A stretch of 64,000 nucleotides of DNA from Paenibacillus phyllosphaerae (GTDB lineage: Bacteria; Bacillota; Bacilli; Paenibacillales; Paenibacillaceae): positions 1-64,000 of the forward strand of contig NZ_JACHXK010000028.1 of assembly GCF_014192105.1 (NCBI RefSeq). Reading direction: 5' to 3'. The first letter of the stretch is position 1; every line of letters begins with the position of its first letter. Positions 5,094 through 64,000 of the stretch are shown one piece after another. The position numbers and the translations under genes are program-made. Under the pieces are notes generated by a model, which did not search any database, had not been told where the DNA came from, and saw only the letters and a list, made by a program, of their open reading frames with translations.

Positions 5094-5831
5094 TTAGGAT
5101 GAAGATGCTGCCGTTCTTAGCGGCGTCTGATGAACGGCCTGGACTGTCGATAAAGCCGCTTCCAAATCGTCGTAGATGACGTTGCCGACAACGACGGTCT
5201 GCGCAACCTCGGCTGCCGCGCGCGCCTTCGCCGCATCGTCGATGCCTCCGCCGTAAAACAGCTGAGCCTGTGTCAGCAGCTTGGAAGCATGGCTGACTAA
5301 TGCCATGTCGCCGAATGTCCCGCTGTATTCCAGATAGACGACCGGCAGGCGCATGAGCCGGTCCGCCATATACATATGAGCCGCCACGGCATCCGGGCCA
5401 AGAGAGGCATCCGCGCCCGTCAACCTGGCCGCCTCCGCTTCCGGATTAAGAATGATGTATCCTTCCGCGGACGTGCATTCCCACGGAATGAAGGGCCCCA
5501 TTTTGCGCATGGCTTCGATCTGATTGCCGGCGATCCATTCCCCTCTCGGAGTGTTCAACACAAGCGGTACGAAATACCAATCAAAGCCTGGAACGGCCGC
5601 TTCAAGGCTCGATACTTCGAGGGCGCACGGCACCTCAAAGCGACGGATCCGCGACATCAGGTCGACCGTATTATCATAGGTTACGCCGCTGGAGCCGCCG
5701 ACTAGAACCGCATCCGTGCCGGACATACAGATGGCGTCAAGCGCCTCGTCGGTTAGCTCCCGCTCCGGATCGAGCTTAAAGACATGCCGCCAGGACGAAA
5801 ATAGATTTGTGTGCATGATGGTAGTAAGCAT
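5094..5831 (-). CDS. pcrB: Heptaprenylglyceryl phosphate synthase PcrB
   Basis: PcrB is a TIM-barrel prenyltransferase that joins heptaprenyl diphosphate to sn-glycerol-1-phosphate, giving an archaeal-like ether lipid precursor. The 245-residue protein begins with the family pattern W.H.FKLDPER.L, followed by GTDAVLVGGSSGVT, and has the YLEYSGTFGD and LFYGGGIDDAAKA phosphate-binding segments. It directly precedes pcrA as in Bacillus and Paenibacillus, which supports the call. It starts 24 nt after the STAS gene, so it probably shares that transcript. AGGAAGGGA lies just before the ATG; a second ATG five codons later is less well spaced. Confidence 0.93.
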   Translation of the reverse strand: MLTTIMHTNLFSSWRHVFKLDPERELTDEALDAICMSGTDAVLVGGSSGVTYDNTVDLMSRIRRFEVPCALEVSSLEAAVPGFDWYFVPLVLNTPRGEWIAGNQIEAMRKMGPFIPWECTSAEGYIILNPEAEAARLTGADASLGPDAVAAHMYMADRLMRLPVVYLEYSGTFGDMALVSHASKLLTQAQLFYGGGIDDAAKARAAAEVAQTVVVGNVIYDDLEAALSTVQAVHQTPLRTAASSS

Positions 5832-56097: not shown

Positions 56098-57807
56098 TTA
56101 ACGAAGCAGTTGCAGTACGCCTTGCGGTTGTTGGTTCGCTTGAGCCAGCATCGCTTGGGAAGCTTGTGCAAGGATGTTGTTCTTCGTTTGTTCCATCATT
56201 TCTTTAGCCATGTCTACGTCACGGATACGGGATTCAGCAGCCGTCAGGTTCTCGGAAGAAGTACCCAGGTTGTTGATCGTGTGCTCCAGACGGTTTTGCA
56301 CCGCACCAAGCTTGGAACGCTCGGAGGATACGGAAGTGATCGCTTTGTCGATTGCGGAGATTGCAGTTGCAGCATTTTCAGCAGTCGTGACATCGAGCGC
56401 CTTCTCGGCCAATGTGTTATCCGTACCATCGGTAACGTTAGCTGCCGAAGAGAATCCTGTTCCTGTTCCTGTCAGGCCCAGTGCGGATGCACGCATGTCA
56501 GAAACCGCCAAAGTCATCGATTGATTTTGGTTAGCGCCGATTTGGAACTTCAGGGAACGGTCTTCAGTAACAGCGGCTGTAGTTTTTCCCGCTTCAGTTA
56601 CAACTTTTTTAGTTTCTGTTTCCAACTTAAATGTGCCAGTCAGGTCAGTAGCATCGCCTGCATCCAGGTTGAACTTAATGCCGTTAGCATCGTAGTCGAA
56701 TGCCGTAGCGCCATCCCACGAGTAGGTTGTTTTCGAAACGGACGTGCCAGTCGAATCTTGAAGATCAACGATCAGATTCGTGCCATCAAATTGCACGTTC
56801 ACTTGGGAAACGTTCGCGATCAAATCAGGGTCAGCTGCATCGACTTCAAAACCAGTCATTGCAGGTTCGTTACCTGCGGTGCTGTCATTCGTTGTCCAAT
56901 CTTGTGCTACAGGCGTCGAGTTGATCGGTGCCGTAGTTACGTCACCGGTTCCGCTGTTCGCTTTGTTCAAGTCGATTGTTACGGTTTCTCCTGCTGCCCA
57001 ATCCGTTGCGTCGTCACCTTTGAAAGACAGGGAGATGCCATCGTTATTGAACGAGTATGTATCCGTAGCATCATCGTATGCTAGGTCCTGTGCAGCGATA
57101 TCCAGTGTCTGCGGAGTACCGGCAGAGTCTGTACCGCTAAACGAAAGCGTAAAGCCGTCAGCGCCACGCGTAATCGACAGTGTGTTCGTTTCATCAGTAT
57201 CCAGGGCAGCCCAGTCAAAGCCGTTAGCAGCGTTACCCGTAAAGCTAACATCGAAGTCAACCTCGGAACCGTCGCCAGACCAGCTTACTGGCTCAGCGCC
57301 CACCGTAACCGTCTGAGTCGTTGCTTTTAGAACGTCAACTGTTGTATCGGCAGTTGTAGAAGCCTTTGTTACTTCGAAATCCTCGGTCAGACTCCCGTTC
57401 AGCAATTTCTTCGTGTTGAATTCGGTCGTGTTACCGATCCGGTTGATCTCGGAAGTCAGCTGGTTCATTTCTTCTTGCAGCTGATTACGGTCTTCTGTCG
57501 TGTTCGTATCGTTGGACGATTGAACCGCCAGTTCACGCATACGCTGCAGGATGCTGTGGGTTTCGTTCAGCGCGCCCTCAGCTGTTTGAACCAGGGAGAT
57601 ACCGTCTTGAGCGTTCTTCGACGCCATGTCGAGACCGCGGATCTGTCCGCGCATTTTCTCGGAAATCGCAAGACCTGCTGCATCGTCGCCTGCGCGGTTA
57701 ATGCGAAGACCCGAAGACAGCTTCTCAATGGATTTGTTCGTGTTCGCCGAGTTCGTGCTCAGCTGACGGTACGTGTTCAGGGAAGCAATGTTGTGGTTAA
57801 TACGCAT
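56098..57807 (-). CDS. hag: Flagellin, long form
   Basis: The filament subunit. The conserved N-terminal D0/D1 ([38 protein letters not shown]) and C-terminal D1/D0 ([19 protein letters not shown]) are intact. At 569 residues it is about twice the length of Bacillus subtilis Hag; the extra ~270 residues (about 150-420) form a Thr/Asp/Ala-rich, beta-type central domain exposed on the filament. There is no HExxH motif, so it is not a flagellinolysin. Its leader carries two predicted CsrA-binding hairpins, one over the Shine-Dalgarno AAGGAGG. Its last ~70 residues are identical to those of the second flagellin at the right edge. Confidence 0.97.
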
Positions 57808-57813
57808 GATAAA

Positions 57814-57828
57814 ATTCCTCCTTGGAAT
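57814..57828 (-). promoter_or_regulatory. Predicted CsrA site over the hag Shine-Dalgarno
   Basis: On the minus strand ATTCC, loop AAGGA, GGAAT form a 5-bp hairpin that places the Shine-Dalgarno GGA in the loop, 6 nt before the start codon. It corresponds to the ribosome-site CsrA target (BS2) known in Bacillus hag. Confidence 0.7.
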
Positions 57829-57836
57829 GTGTGCTA

Positions 57837-57858
57837 CGGTGAACTTCCATTTTCACCG
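57837..57858 (-). promoter_or_regulatory. Predicted upstream CsrA site in the hag leader
   Basis: On the minus strand CGGTGAA, loop AATGGAAG, TTCACCG form a 7-bp perfect hairpin with GGA in the loop, 30 nt before the start codon. It matches in type and place the BS1 hairpin of Bacillus hag. Confidence 0.72.
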
Positions 57859-57899
57859 CTATATATAACAAGCTGCTTAAACAGCCTATTACCGAAATT

Positions 57900-57971
57900 A
57901 AAAAGGACGAGCAGTAAACCATCCGCAGCTCCGGTATCCTACCGGCTGTCAGATGCTCACTACTCGTCCTT
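57900..57971 (-). terminator. Terminator between csrA and hag
   Basis: AAGGACGAG and CTCGTCCTT (57971-57903) with an inner CCGGTA/TACCGG stem are followed by TTTTT. It lies 25 nt after the csrA stop, so hag should need its own promoter or read-through. Confidence 0.82.
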
Positions 57972-57995
57972 GAGTAAACTATGTAATTGAGATTG

Positions 57996-58166
57996 CTATT
58001 CCGCTTGGCTCAGGCTCTGTTCGTAGACCTCGCCGCGCAGAATCGAAATATGCTTCGGTGCATCGATGGCAAGGCGCAAATCGCCATCCTTGCTCTTCAC
58101 CACTTGAACTTTAATCTCGTCACCGATCATGATGTACTCGCCTGGCTTTCTGCCTACTACTAGCAC
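57996..58166 (-). CDS. csrA: Carbon storage regulator CsrA (flagellin translation repressor)
   Basis: A 56-residue RNA-binding dimer that begins with a GTG (read as Met): LVVGRKPGEYIMIGDEIK, then VVKSKDGDLRLAIDAP and KHISILRGEVY. The conserved Arg of the LRGEVY strand, needed for RNA binding, is present. CsrA binds GGA in hairpin loops and blocks translation of flagellin; FliW relieves this in Bacillus. AAGGAGG lies 8 nt upstream and is itself inside a predicted CsrA hairpin. The usual neighbour fliW is not upstream; instead there is a candidate RNA and a giant repeat-protein gene. hag follows directly. Confidence 0.96.
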   Translation of the reverse strand: MLVVGRKPGEYIMIGDEIKVQVVKSKDGDLRLAIDAPKHISILRGEVYEQSLSQAE

Positions 58167-58170
58167 TGAC

Positions 58171-58186
58171 GTTTCCTCCTTGAAAC
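58171..58186 (-). promoter_or_regulatory. Predicted CsrA autoregulatory site over the csrA Shine-Dalgarno
   Basis: On the minus strand GTTTC, loop AAGGAG, GAAAC form a perfect 5-bp hairpin with a six-base loop of the CsrA-preferred type ANGGAN. The loop is the csrA Shine-Dalgarno, so CsrA binding would block its own translation. Confidence 0.65.
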
Positions 58187-58245: not shown

Positions 58246-58354
58246 AAAAAAGGATGACCCAATAAAACTCTTACGACTTCGCATCCTGCAAAGTGTTCGA
58301 GTTCTATCAGGTCATCCTTGACCGTTCGTTATTCGGTTGTCTATCATGCTCTTA
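58246..58354 (-). ncRNA. Candidate sigma-D-dependent RNA with CsrA-type hairpins
   Basis: An exact sigma-D promoter should start transcription near 58354, and an intrinsic terminator ends at 58246, giving an RNA of about 108 nt with no convincing open frame. It shows GGTC-AAGGAT-GACC (58323-58310), a hexaloop of the CsrA type, and ACTTTGC-AGGAT-GCGAAGT (58294-58276), again with GGA in a loop. The terminator stem AAGGATGACC/GGTCATCCTT (58319-58250) uses the same bases as the first hairpin, so the two are alternatives. It could be a CsrA-titrating small RNA or an attenuated leader of csrA. I know of no described equivalent in Firmicutes, but could not search. Confidence 0.55.
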
Positions 58355-58360
58355 ATTTAT

Positions 58361-58387
58361 ATATCGGCGCGTTTCAATGAAAGTTTA
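58361..58387 (-). promoter_or_regulatory. Consensus sigma-D promoter
   Basis: On the minus strand TAAA (58387-58384), exactly 15 nt, GCCGATAT (58368-58361). This is a full match to the motility sigma factor consensus and drives the candidate RNA and perhaps csrA. Confidence 0.88.
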
Positions 58388-58476: not shown

Positions 58477-61400
58477 TTATGCTGTTACGTTAAGCCTGAT
58501 CGTGGTGCTCAGCGTGCCGTTCTTAATCGTTATGATGACTTCCCCATACGTCGCGTTGGCCGGGATCGCTATCCGTCCTTCAGCATCCACAGTAGCACGG
58601 CGGGCATTTGAACTTACATAGGTTGTCCCTTCTGTACTTGCGGTAATGGATCTGCTCGTTCCACTACCATACGTTCCGGTTACCGCGATAATCAAACTAT
58701 CTCCACGTCGAGCCGTCAGTGTCGCTGGGGTTATTGTTGCTGTTATGCTCACCAGCTTATTGCTCGTATCTTCTGCTACGGTTAAGGTTACGGTGGTGCT
58801 GACCGTCCCATTCTTAATCGTAATGATAACATCGCCATACAAGGCATCGCTCGGAATCGTTACGCGGCCTTCCGCATCCACAATCGCCTTGCGGGTACTG
58901 CCGCTTAGATAGGTTGTGCCTTCTGTACTTGCGGTAATCGTTCTGCTCGTTCCATTACCATACGTGCCTGTTACTACGATATTCAAGCTGTTTCCGCGAT
59001 GCACCGTCTGTGTCGCAGGATTAGCCGCCATACTCACCAACTTGCCGCTTATATCTTCCTCGACCGTCAAGGTAACAGTCGTGCTGACGGCCCCATTCTT
59101 AATCGTAATGATAACATCGCCGTACAAAGCATCACTTGGAACCGTCACGCCGCCTTCCGCATCTACAATAGCCCGGCGTGTGCTCCCGCTTACGTAAGTC
59201 GTCCCTTCCGTACTTGCGGTAAGCGTCTGGTTCGATCCATCACCATACGTACCCGTTACCGATAAATTCAAGCTGTCGCCGCGATGCACCGTCTGCGTTG
59301 CTGGACTTGCTGCCAGGCTCGTCAGATTGCCGCCGGTATCTTCTTCGACGGTCAGGGTAACCGTTGTGCTAACGGTCGCCCCATTCTTAATCGTGATAAC
59401 TACCTCGCCGTACAAGGCATCGCTCGGAATCGTAATATGGCCTTCCGCATCCACATTGGCCCGACGCGTACTGCTGCTTACATAAGTTGTACCTTCCGTC
59501 GATGCCGTTAGATCCTTGGTTGTGTTATCAGCATACGTGCCTGTCACAGCCAAATCCAAGCTGTCACCACGGTGCACGGTCTGAGATGCAGGACTTGCAG
59601 CCATACTCGTCAGTCTGCCGCTTATATCTTCTTCGATCGTCAGGGTAACGGTTGTGCTGACTTTGCCATTCTTAACGGTAATGATCGCCTCTCCATATAG
59701 CGCATCGACTGGAATTGTAACATGGCCATCCGCGTCCACAATGGCCCGGCGTGAACTGCTGCTTACATAAGTCGTTCCTTCCGTCGACGCTGTTACATCT
59801 TTCGTCGTGTTATCGGCAAAGGTGCCTGTCACAGCCAAATTCAAGCTGTCGCCACGGTGCACCGTTTGCGCAGTTGGATCAGCGTCTAAACGTGTCACGT
59901 CATTGGTCACCGACTCTTCGACCAAAAGCGTAATCATCGCCTGCGCTTCCCCATTCTTCACAACAACAGTTACTTCACCGTACAGCGCATCATCCGGGAT
60001 TGTCACACCGCCATTGGCGTCTACAACTGCACGTCTGGTACTGCCGCTAAGATAGCTCGTTCCTTCGCTGCCCGAAGTGACATTCTTCGTCGTGCCGTTT
60101 CCATATGTGGCAACAGCAGATAGATTCAAGGTGTCGCCGCGATGCACCGTTTGGCTATTCGGGGTAACTGCAAGTCCCACCACAGTGCGGCTTAGATCTT
60201 CCACGATGGAGAGTGTCATCTCCCCTGAGAAGTCTCGATTCTTGACCACAATCGTAACGTCACCATAAAGTGCGTCGCCCGGGATCGTAATTCCGCCTTC
60301 CGCATCCACCGTCGCCCGGCGCACGCTTGAACTCATATAGGTAGTTTCTTCTGCTGAGCTCGTTATATTCTTCGAGACACCATCACTATATTTTCCTACT
60401 ACCGATAACGAGAGTGTATCTCCCCGATGAACGGTTTGGGTGCTTGGCGTTATAATCATGTCCGTCAAACGAGGCCCATCTACCGTAACAAGTGACTTTA
60501 TTGGAATACCATTGTTCGTTGCCGTAATGATTACTAGCCCAAGCGGGGCATTGGCAGGAACGGTAACCAGCCCGTTCGCGTCGACGGACGCCATACTTGT
60601 ATTAGAGGAGACATAGGTTGTACCTTCAGAACCCAGGGTAACATCCTTGGTTGTCCCATTACTCAACGTCGCTCTTATGCTAAGCTGCATCGTTTCCCCA
60701 ACCGCTACCGTTGGTGCAGCTGGCGCTACATCAAGCCGGTTAACTACAGGCGGGGCCGTGACCGTTATCGTTGATTCCGCTGTAATCTCTCCATGGGTCA
60801 CTACAATCGTTGCAGTCCCCTTAAGAACGTTAGACCCTACCGAAACCTTCCCGTTCTGATCGATGGTAACGCCGTCGACTCCCGAAATCGAATACGTCGT
60901 ACCCGTCGATCCAGAAGTAACCTCTCTTACTGTCCCATCCTTAAAGTACGCTGTGACCTGTAAGGGACTTGATTCTCCCGGTGCCAACCGAAGTGCAATC
61001 GGATCAATCTGGAGGTATTCCTCCAACGTTCCTCCTGAAATTGTAATTTCGGTTTGCGCTGTCATACCACTGTTAGCTGCCTGGACAAAGACAACCCCAG
61101 GCTCGGCATTGTCCGCGACTGTGATAACGCCGTTCTCATTAACTTTCACAGCTGTAGGCTTCGAACTCGTGTATACTGTTTTAGCCGTACCTAATGTAAC
61201 ATCCTGGGTCTTCCCATCTGTCATATACAGCGTCGTCAGTAGGTTTTGGCTATCCCCAGGCTTCAAGCTAACCGCACTTGGCGTCACCCCGATGCTAAAG
61301 GGAACTGCTGGAGGAATGGTGATTACTCCGCGCACGGTGAAATGAAAAGAGCTGAAATCTGCCATTTCTCCATAGCCAGCCGATTGATCGTAAATGCTTC

Positions 61401-62499
61401 TATAATTGCCCTTGGCATCCCGAAGCGAGATATTCTTCAGTTTCCATGTTCCGAGCTGGTCATATCTATCGATCCTTACCGTTCCCTCGTATTTGCCGGT
61501 ATCGTAATTGCGGGAAAAGTAAACACTATAAGTAGAGCCGTTCGGCTTTTGATAATCCGCATAAATGTAGCCGACTCCTGACAAATTGTCGTTGCTTCCT
61601 AAAGTCAGCTTCACAACTGCACCGCTTGAGTTCGCCTGCTCCAGTGAGATTGCCAAATGGTCCAATGTCGGGCCGATCAAGTCCGGCGTCGTACCGATAA
61701 CCTCGAAGGAATATGAACTGAAGTCGCCGCGAGCCGCAGAATAGGAAGAGTAATTCTCGGCATAGTCTCTCAGACTAACATTGCTGAGATTCCAACTCCC
61801 CAGCTCATCATAAGCGTCGATCATCAAACTCCCTTCATACAAGCCTGATGATTGATTATAGTGTAGCGATATGTTCGTGCTGTTAATCGGCTTCTGAATG
61901 CCCACATAAACAGAAGATACACCCGACCCGACATCCGTGACATCCGCCTTTACAGTCACATATCCACCCGGACCTACTTGGCTATCCGAGATAAACTCGA
62001 CACTACTAAGCACTGGTGGAATATCATCCACTATTCCGCCTGTTACGTGAATCGAATAAGGGGAAAAATCGAATCCATTCAAGGAACTCTCGCTTGTCGA
62101 ATGGTAAATCGAGCGTCGATTATCTTTATTATCCTCAAGGGTCACACTATTAAGTGTCCAATCTCCCCCCTCGTAAGAACCAAACGTAATGCTGCCTTCA
62201 TATTTCAGCGTTGAACTATTGTAGTAAAGACTTACATAATTGCTGTTGTTATCTGGCCCCGTATAATAGGCATAAATATTAGCAATACCTGATAAATCAT
62301 CTTCTGCTTCGATGGATAGCTGCAACGGGACATTGACTGCAGTTTCATTGTCCGAGATCGCGATCGAAGTTAACGTCGGTGCTTCCGTATCCGGCGTCGG
62401 ATCCTCGATGATGACTTCTGTTGCATACACCGGTACCGCTGTGCTTAGCATCAAAATAATTGCAAGGAATAATGATAATAATCGTTTTTTACTAGCCAT
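58477..62499 (-). CDS. Giant secreted Ig-like (Big_2 type) repeat protein
   Basis: A 1340-residue exported protein of unknown function. AGGGGAG lies 7 nt before the ATG at 62499, followed by a signal peptide (LLSLFLAIILMLSTAVPVYA). Residues about 30-390 are three ~115-residue units ending in patterns like GTWKLKNISLRD, resembling the beta-sandwich repeats of Paenibacillus surface proteins. Then come ten Ig-like repeats of about 95 residues; seven carry QTVHRGDSL or close variants followed by TEGTTYVSSS.RRA.VDA.G..TIP..ALYG. The last four to six are very similar in DNA too, indicating recent expansion. There is no LPXTG, SLH or GW anchor. It lies between csrA and the second flagellin, so a filament- or adhesion-linked role is possible. 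Confidence 0.88.
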   Translation of the reverse strand: MASKKRLLSLFLAIILMLSTAVPVYATEVIIEDPTPDTEAPTLTSIAISDNETAVNVPLQLSIEAEDDLSGIANIYAYYTGPDNNSNYVSLYYNSSTLKYEGSITFGSYEGGDWTLNSVTLEDNKDNRRSIYHSTSESSLNGFDFSPYSIHVTGGIVDDIPPVLSSVEFISDSQVGPGGYVTVKADVTDVGSGVSSVYVGIQKPINSTNISLHYNQSSGLYEGSLMIDAYDELGSWNLSNVSLRDYAENYSSYSAARGDFSSYSFEVIGTTPDLIGPTLDHLAISLEQANSSGAVVKLTLGSNDNLSGVGYIYADYQKPNGSTYSVYFSRNYDTGKYEGTVRIDRYDQLGTWKLKNISLRDAKGNYRSIYDQSAGYGEMADFSSFHFTVRGVITIPPAVPFSIGVTPSAVSLKPGDSQNLLTTLYMTDGKTQDVTLGTAKTVYTSSKPTAVKVNENGVITVADNAEPGVVFVQAANSGMTAQTEITISGGTLEEYLQIDPIALRLAPGESSPLQVTAYFKDGTVREVTSGSTGTTYSISGVDGVTIDQNGKVSVGSNVLKGTATIVVTHGEITAESTITVTAPPVVNRLDVAPAAPTVAVGETMQLSIRATLSNGTTKDVTLGSEGTTYVSSNTSMASVDANGLVTVPANAPLGLVIITATNNGIPIKSLVTVDGPRLTDMIITPSTQTVHRGDTLSLSVVGKYSDGVSKNITSSAEETTYMSSSVRRATVDAEGGITIPGDALYGDVTIVVKNRDFSGEMTLSIVEDLSRTVVGLAVTPNSQTVHRGDTLNLSAVATYGNGTTKNVTSGSEGTSYLSGSTRRAVVDANGGVTIPDDALYGEVTVVVKNGEAQAMITLLVEESVTNDVTRLDADPTAQTVHRGDSLNLAVTGTFADNTTKDVTASTEGTTYVSSSSRRAIVDADGHVTIPVDALYGEAIITVKNGKVSTTVTLTIEEDISGRLTSMAASPASQTVHRGDSLDLAVTGTYADNTTKDLTASTEGTTYVSSSTRRANVDAEGHITIPSDALYGEVVITIKNGATVSTTVTLTVEEDTGGNLTSLAASPATQTVHRGDSLNLSVTGTYGDGSNQTLTASTEGTTYVSGSTRRAIVDAEGGVTVPSDALYGDVIITIKNGAVSTTVTLTVEEDISGKLVSMAANPATQTVHRGNSLNIVVTGTYGNGTSRTITASTEGTTYLSGSTRKAIVDAEGRVTIPSDALYGDVIITIKNGTVSTTVTLTVAEDTSNKLVSITATITPATLTARRGDSLIIAVTGTYGSGTSRSITASTEGTTYVSSNARRATVDAEGRIAIPANATYGEVIITIKNGTLSTTIRLNVTA

Positions 62500-62584
62500 A
62501 GGTGTACTCCCCTTGTACAAACTAGAATCGCTGCACGAATATAGCTACTTCAGAACAAATAATGTAAAAGAAATACTCCCCCTA

Positions 62585-63581: not shown

Positions 63582-64000
63582 TTAACGGAGCAACTGCAGA
63601 ACACCTTGCGGCTGCTGGTTCGCTTGTGCAAGCATCGCTTGGGAAGCTTGTGCAAGGATGTTGTTCTTCGTTTGTTCCATCATTTCTTTTGCCATGTCAA
63701 CGTCACGGATACGGGATTCCGCTGCTGTCAGGTTCTCGGACGATGTGCCGAGGTTGTTAATTGTGTGCTCCAGACGGTTCTGGGATGCACCAAGCTTCGA
63801 ACGCTCGCTGGATACCGACTTGATTGCGTTGTCGATCGCTGTGATTGCATTAGCTGCATTCTCAGATGTCGTTACGTCAAGCGCCTTCTCTGCGTTCGTG
63901 CTGTCTGTGCCGTTCGTTACGTTGTTCGACGAGGAGAAGCCTGTGCCTGTGCCTGTCAAGCCCAGTGCGCTTGCACGCATGTCGGAGAAGCCCAGGGACA
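63582..64000 (-). CDS. Second flagellin, 3' part only
   Basis: Only the last ~139 codons are inside the window; the gene continues past the right edge. The reading frame is open to the edge ([18 protein letters not shown]...). The last ~70 residues, from SERSKLGA to [11 protein letters not shown], differ from Hag at only one position near the start, and the DNA is also very close, while the part just before diverges. This points to duplication with later gene conversion of the D0/D1 ends. Whether it also has a long central domain cannot be seen. Confidence 0.95.
   Translation of the reverse strand, partial: SLGFSDMRASALGLTGTGTGFSSSNNVTNGTDSTNAEKALDVTTSENAANAITAIDNAIKSVSSERSKLGASQNRLEHTINNLGTSSENLTAAESRIRDVDMAKEMMEQTKNNILAQASQAMLAQANQQPQGVLQLLR

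Follow-up and report, generated by a model that had tools for sequence, protein, structure and literature searches.

How a transcript that starts at a flagellar sigma-D promoter can pass an intrinsic terminator and reach the genes behind it is the question raised by this locus. The locus carries flagellar filament genes on the minus strand of a 7.9-Mb Paenibacillus-like genome (G000) and lies in the 64,000-nt stretch of DNA that was analysed, hereafter the window. Read 5' to 3', it consists of a sigma-D promoter, a terminator, a short csrA gene designated here as csrA2, a second copy of the terminator element and a flagellin gene. In Firmicutes, CsrA is a translational regulator of flagellin and is restrained by FliW. 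The original prediction offered two models for the region before csrA, either a small RNA that titrates CsrA or an attenuator in which CsrA decides whether transcription continues into its own gene. The answer we prefer, with a probability of about 0.6, is that a CsrA-responsive attenuator, present twice, governs the course of the sigma-D transcript through csrA2 into the flagellin gene.

The promoter was exact, as predicted (TAAA-N15-GCCGATAT, 12/12; 58361-58387, with TAAA at 58387-58384 and GCCGATAT at 58368-58361; minus strand, like all features of the locus). It is followed by a small hairpin, GGTC-AAGGAT-GACC (58310-58323), with a CsrA-type hexaloop, which from its sequence and from pairing counts is proposed to be the antiterminator. 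The intrinsic terminator (58246-58319) comprises a 70-nt hairpin at 58319-58250 and a U-tract of six U at 58251-58246. Its apical hairpin, ACTTTGC-AGGAT-GCGAAGT (58294-58276), presents the loop AGGAT (58283-58287), which together with its closing C-G pair reads CAGGAUG, as in the repeats of CsrB. Both the tip (AGGAT) and the 5' base (AAGGAT) of the terminator are thus CsrA-type GGA sites. The loop and 3' arm of the small hairpin coincide with the ten bases that open the terminator 5' arm, and because these ten bases are common to both, the two folds are mutually exclusive. This had been predicted, and it is borne out by the sequence and by a forced fold. The upstream element folds at -47.1 kcal/mol as compared with -23.2 +/- 3.1 for shuffles (z -7.6, 0/200). 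When the small hairpin is imposed, the fold loses 14 kcal/mol (from -45.0 to -31.0); the inner hairpin stays, while the base of the terminator comes off the U-tract. In the terminated fold one GGA is exposed and the other is paired, and the predicted terminated product is about 109 nt long. The competing hairpin is weak, with a mean of -1.3 kcal/mol over 95 elements.

Behind the terminator, the ribosome-binding site of csrA2 is placed in the hairpin GTTTC-AAGGAG-GAAAC (58171-58186), and the csrA2 gene (57996-58166) encodes, from a GTG start, a 56-aa CsrA paralog without C-terminal extension and without Asn55. The gap between csrA2 and flagellin holds the second copy of the element (57896-57978), with the small hairpin TTACTC-AAGGAC-GAGTAG, a terminator at 57971-57903 with a U-tract reaching to 57900, and the tip CCGGT-AGGAT-ACCGG. 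Our covariance model R1 matches this copy with 64.6 bits and the upstream copy (58326-58243) with 64.4 bits; R1 was built with both window copies, so both matches involve training sequences. In the flagellin leader (57814-57858), the hairpin CGGTGAA-AATGGAAG-TTCACCG stands together with a ribosome-binding site in ATTCC-AAGGA-GGAAT, and the flagellin itself, the partner gene of csrA2, is 569 aa long (56098-57807). The original prediction was right in placing a terminator before a csrA gene, except that the gene is the short paralog csrA2 and not canonical csrA; it did not include the csrA paralogy, the second element copy and the GGA hairpin at the csrA2 ribosome-binding site. In relatives, the csrA2 ribosome-binding site is held in comparable hairpins, GATTC-AAGGAG-GAATC in G009 and ACTTCT-AAGGAG-AGAAGT in G006. 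A GGA-loop hairpin was present at -56..-34 in 19 of the 31 flagellin leaders with a fixable start, against 3.4% of shuffles. Translational autoregulation of csrA2 through the GGA hairpin at its ribosome-binding site is possible.

Two other origins of the upstream element were considered and rejected. It is not the end of the upstream gene, which is closed by a separate terminator (58471-58443) before the sigma-D promoter. Nor is it derived from a repeat or mobile element, as the 221-bp leader matches once in its own genome and once in 21 other genomes of the genus.

For comparison with relatives, genome contigs were scanned with six csrA2 proteins, and the best 80 of 127 candidates were kept, giving 79 loci from Paenibacillus, Bacillus, Halobacillus, Clostridium, Tepidibacter, Desulfosporosinus, Sporomusa and others. 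The two GGA-in-loop hairpins noticed in the window were found to be part of a general excess: 174 such hairpins occur upstream of csrA2 in 77 regions, as compared with 48.7 +/- 7.7 in shuffles (maximum 73 in 60 runs), and 137 GGA sites occur between csrA2 and flagellin in 74 regions, as compared with 40.8 +/- 5.2. Terminators were surveyed in 78 regions (77 loci and the window), of which 69 had a terminator and 66 one ending within 120 nt. The nearest terminator upstream of csrA2 carried GGA in the apical loop in 60 of these 66 regions, the window included. Control terminators from elsewhere in the csrA2 loci had a GGA tip in 5 of 78 cases, under a cut-off (dG < -18 and five T) stricter than that used upstream of csrA2 (dG < -9), and two of the five were the element beside another csrA2. 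Among control hairpins longer than 50 nt, GGA tips were seen in 2/36, both of them the element beside another csrA2, and among short ones in 3/42. It is true that each hairpin taken alone is a good intrinsic terminator, but these differences, together with the two-sided covariation described below, make it very improbable that we are looking at ordinary terminators with GGA tips by chance.

GGA-tipped terminators numbered 105, of which 66 lie upstream of csrA2 and 39 in the gap before flagellin. All but two (103) carry another GGA in the 5' base, and in 69 of the 105 this basal GGA fell within the first 9 nt, as compared with 8 of 76 controls. The distance from GGA to GGA is 30.6 +/- 1.4 nt (n=103), and the spacing on the 3' side is similarly tight (29.0 +/- 1.5, n=96); this regularity may merely reflect the size of the hairpin. 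The GGA spacing falls inside the range of 10-63 nt, with an optimum above 18, that is given for bridging by CsrA in the cited part of PMC7652899. The same part lists ANGGAN hexaloops and CAGGA(U/A/C)G loops, the latter as in CsrB, among known CsrA loops, and RUACARGGAUGU on short stems as the SELEX consensus. The loops of the element match all of these and have GGA within a hairpin loop, which is the general form of a CsrA-type RNA target. Conservation is among the highest in the columns of the apical C-AGGAN-G loop, which the terminator fold leaves exposed.

Covariation was examined in an alignment (A2) of 39 sequences, two from the window and 37 hand-picked from 49 under 80% alike, and the pair counts were repeated on the unselected set of all 51 sequences. 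A further alignment (A3), being fitted to the R1 model, did not enter the pair counts. In the 39-sequence alignment, terminator positions were paired in 91.8% of cells, covariation was 0.601 against 0.244 when shuffled, and two-sided changes occurred in 15 of 20 terminator pairs. On all 51 sequences terminator pairing was 89.2%, as compared with 70.4% shuffled (0/500). The corresponding values for the competing hairpin were 81.5% against 73.7% shuffled (0/500) in the 39 sequences, where slid registers reached at most 55%, and 73.1% against 66.6% (1/500) in all 51. For the competing hairpin, two of five covariation measures did not exceed chance, and sliding the register by +1 gave more two-sided cells than the hairpin itself (19 vs 15 in the 39-sequence, 23 vs 21 in the 51-sequence set). 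The competing stem reached 4 bp or more in 68 of 103 elements (66%), and in 29 of 41 non-redundant elements, where swapped flanks gave a mean of 16.4 and a maximum of 24 (0/1000). The terminator covaries strongly, and the competing hairpin covaries moderately and above its nulls, which is the outcome of the covariation check suggested with the original prediction. The element thus has, at moderate strength, a conserved second fold incompatible with the terminator and containing a putative protein site, as expected of an attenuator.

The distribution of the element was followed with R1. There were two matches in its own 7.9-Mb genome, both adjoining csrA2 (150 of 1286 candidates scored), and 135 in the 79 csrA2 loci (905 kb), which had been selected for the presence of csrA2; these counts, like those for the family genomes, include the sequences used for building the model. 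Nearly all of the plus-strand matches in the csrA2 loci (132/133) lay near the csrA2 ORF. Where the sequence extended far enough (77 loci), the element was found ahead of csrA2 in 63, and with it an intrinsic terminator in the leader of the gene, as an attenuator would have. It was found downstream in 42/79, on at least one side in 69/79 and on both sides in 36/79. An R1 match was absent in 10 of the 79 loci. Five of these ten are Sporomusa loci (L066, L074, L075, L078 and L080), in which csrA2 and flagellin are present and another design is possible. Within the Paenibacillus family, the element occurred in 17 of 18 genomes with csrA2, the one without a match being G361, and in none of 18 hand-picked genomes without csrA2 (126 candidates scored per genome). 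Thirty of the 32 matches in family genomes were beside csrA2, one preceded a csrA2 remnant and one was weak (G329, 32 bits). The match before the remnant, in G302 (L150, G302:C66:81608-81693), a strong element with an exact sigma-D promoter, was rejected as an orphan, as it precedes what, read by eye, is an apparent decayed csrA2. In a search of seven genomes, two gave R1 matches; the csrA2 proteins of these two are outside the listed scan set, and the element flanked csrA2 on both sides in each. The proteins of G403, G709 and G727 match at 52-58% and may be csrA1. G755, which has an 82-aa csrA2, and G621, whose protein equals that of L090, gave no R1 match. A phylum-wide search of 299 genomes returned only the own genome and G482, with 15 candidates scored per genome, and has little bearing on frequency.

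This distribution bears on the first of the two predicted models, a sigma-D-dependent small RNA titrating CsrA in the manner of CsrB/RsmZ. Such an RNA would suit the exact sigma-D promoter, the predicted product of about 109 nt with its exposed CsrB-type CAGGANG loop, and a csrA2 protein that probably cannot be held by FliW. CsrB, however, carries many GGA sites, while here a single GGA is exposed per terminated RNA; the matches cluster near csrA2 with no stand-alone copy found, and for the copy after csrA2 sigma-D promoters do not rise above chance. Neither a free-standing gene nor several exposed GGA loops, the marks of a sponge RNA, were seen among the scored candidates. We therefore disfavour this model and consider it unlikely.

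Promoters were distributed unevenly along the module. In 40 of 64 loci, 10 of them with an exact match (12/12), the 160 nt ahead of the first element contained a sigma-D promoter of at least 10/12; shuffles had one in 3.4% and other windows in 2.5% of cases. Between csrA2 and flagellin such promoters were found in 2 of 66 loci, which is the chance level (null 2.3%, for the sigma-D type only). Since sigma-D promoters are common before the element and at chance level after csrA2, sigma-D transcripts must read through terminators. The distance from the hairpin to the csrA2 start codon has a median of 39.5 nt (52 loci), which leaves little room for another promoter before csrA2. In the window, csrA2 could be transcribed separately from a TATAAT at 58232-58227, beyond the terminator; the promoter scan of the window listed no minus-strand site.

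Since the sigma-D transcript meets at least one terminator before flagellin, regulated passage makes sense of the arrangement. The attenuator model is favoured for its position in cis with csrA2, its recurrence before flagellin and the lack of a sigma-D excess after csrA2. According to this model, RNA polymerase would start at the sigma-D promoter and the small hairpin would form first, with A(A/U)GGA(C/U) in its hexaloop, followed about 30 nt later by the second hairpin with the tip CAGGANG. Free CsrA, that is CsrA2 and perhaps CsrA1, would bind the first site, and its other RNA-binding face may bridge to the second. Bound CsrA would keep the base of the terminator open and allow read-through into csrA2, and passage through the second copy would let the flagellin gene be transcribed. 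Without CsrA, the long hairpin would close onto the U-tract and transcription would stop at about 109 nt. We infer the sign of the effect, read-through rather than more termination, from the basal site, which belongs to the stretch that has to pair for the terminator to form.

The opposite sign, in which CsrA promotes or stabilises termination by way of the exposed apical loop and so represses its own transcription, is the less likely of the two, though the most plausible among the alternatives. It would account for the high conservation of the apical C-AGGAN-G loop, exposed as it is in the formed terminator, and would agree with the same protein repressing the translation of flagellin. It leaves unexplained the basal GGA in 103/105 terminators and the flank that forms the competing hairpin (29/41 vs 16.4). 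In the read-through model, the GGA hairpins at the csrA2 and flagellin ribosome-binding sites suggest that CsrA could also hold back translation. A CsrA that opens transcription of flagellin and yet represses its translation needs a further step, for example a stored mRNA that is freed when CsrA is withdrawn.

The hairpins might also protect or process the operon RNA, with CsrA controlling the access of nucleases and the csrA2 and flagellin segments differing in stability. The placement of the element on both sides of csrA2 would suit this, as would the documented effect of CsrA on RNA stability (described in the cited part of PMC7652899). We regard it as improbable, as the U-tracts and the bases of the hairpins are built like those of intrinsic terminators and the competing fold takes apart the terminator base.

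Several known systems resemble the proposed attenuator in part. In Legionella pneumophila tkt/gap, as described in the cited part of PMC5338858, CsrA shifts the RNA towards an antiterminator fold in which A(N)GGA is exposed. As in our element, the motif is either hidden in a terminator stem or exposed in a loop, and there CsrA binding lets transcription continue. That system differs in being Rho-dependent, inside a coding sequence and represented by a single gammaproteobacterial locus; ours has intrinsic terminators with two GGA about 30 nt apart in leader and intergenic positions, in many Firmicute genera, and is tied to csrA2 and flagellin. In the E. coli pgaA leader CsrA remodels the RNA and exposes a Rho site (cited part of PMC7652899), which is likewise an action on elongation through remodelling of a two-site leader, though Rho-dependent and with the opposite outcome. 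BglG/SacY and TRAP attenuators, in the portion of PMC4347634 cited, share the selection by an RNA-binding protein between a terminator and an overlapping hairpin; their proteins are unrelated, whereas the element has CsrA-type sites. CsrB/CsrC and RsmY/RsmZ have the same CAGGA(U/A/C)G loops, terminator-ended RNA and regulated promoter, but are free RNAs with many sites, while the element has one or two sites in cis to csrA2. Finally, Bacillus subtilis Hag-FliW-CsrA also has CsrA beside flagellin and GGA hairpins in the flagellin leader, but csrA2 lacks the FliW contact residue and the C-terminal extension, and in the window genome fliW-csrA1 is separate. At gathering score, no listed match in Rfam 15 overlaps the element in the window and 12 of the 79 loci, and a permissive scan gave only matches far below cut-off. 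A literature search returned no comparable element among open-licence PMC papers, where absence is weak evidence. To judge from sequence, the element appears to represent a new RNA family with a known kind of logic.

The protein side of the module was examined as well. The window genome has two csrA genes, the other being in a canonical fliW-csrA pair (csrA1) on contig C5. Csr-type identity of csrA2 is indicated by its match in the PDB to CsrA 1y00 (E 1.3e-9), and the csrA1/csrA2 split has a tree support of 0.996 (13 csrA1, 111 csrA2). Most members of the csrA2 group start with MLVxGRKPGE. Arg44, critical for RNA binding by CsrA according to the cited part of PMC7829508, is retained in 79 of 80 csrA2. 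Asn55, which according to the same part CsrA of B. subtilis and C. jejuni requires to bind FliW, is present in 1 of 80 csrA2 and in 33 of 33 csrA1; csrA2 thus lacks both marks of a FliW-controlled CsrA, Asn55 and the C-terminal extension. The antagonism by FliW, mentioned in the original prediction, fits canonical CsrA but probably not the csrA2 paralog. In 73 of the 79 loci, csrA2 is followed within 2 kb by the start of a flagellin ORF (median 594 aa). Flagellins after csrA2 measure 135-1476 aa and those after csrA1 in the same loci 375-690 aa (11 cases); because these ranges overlap, flagellin length separates the partners only loosely.

We give somewhat better than even odds to the wider view that the two-site CsrA-gated intrinsic terminator is a dedicated and widespread Firmicute RNA family that has a FliW-blind CsrA subfamily of its own, with autogenous antitermination gating flagellin transcription in parallel to Hag-FliW-CsrA. 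A second CsrA subfamily, expected to be FliW-blind, would then be tied to flagellin genes via terminators with putative CsrA sites. If so, the module would offer a compact, testable case of CsrA control over intrinsic termination, a hint of how cells time the making of a second flagellin, and a new RNA family for annotation.

Some further observations were made in the same loci. In the window, a 1347-aa protein with tandem repeats of Ig-like appearance is encoded at 58477-62520 (minus strand), between csrA2 and a partial second flagellin (63582-63980) near the contig end. The csrA2 gene is frequently duplicated in tandem before a single flagellin, as in L044, L046, L071, L083 and others. The csrA2-flagellin gaps of L035 (6449-6640) and L036 (8921-9103), from G006 and G011, had no visible terminator and contain a hairpin, CCACT-TAAGGACG-AGTGG, like the basal CsrA site. 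In Tepidibacter formicigenes (L101), where two csrA2 ORFs stand in tandem, a c-di-GMP-II riboswitch (RF01786, 72 bits) at 5435-5517 on the plus strand ends some 20 nt short of the first of them (5539-5718), so the csrA2 module can also be wired to c-di-GMP. Two matches to the Bacillaceae-1 RNA (RF01690) were located in L106, at 1491-1557 and 2343-2409, near flagellin genes.
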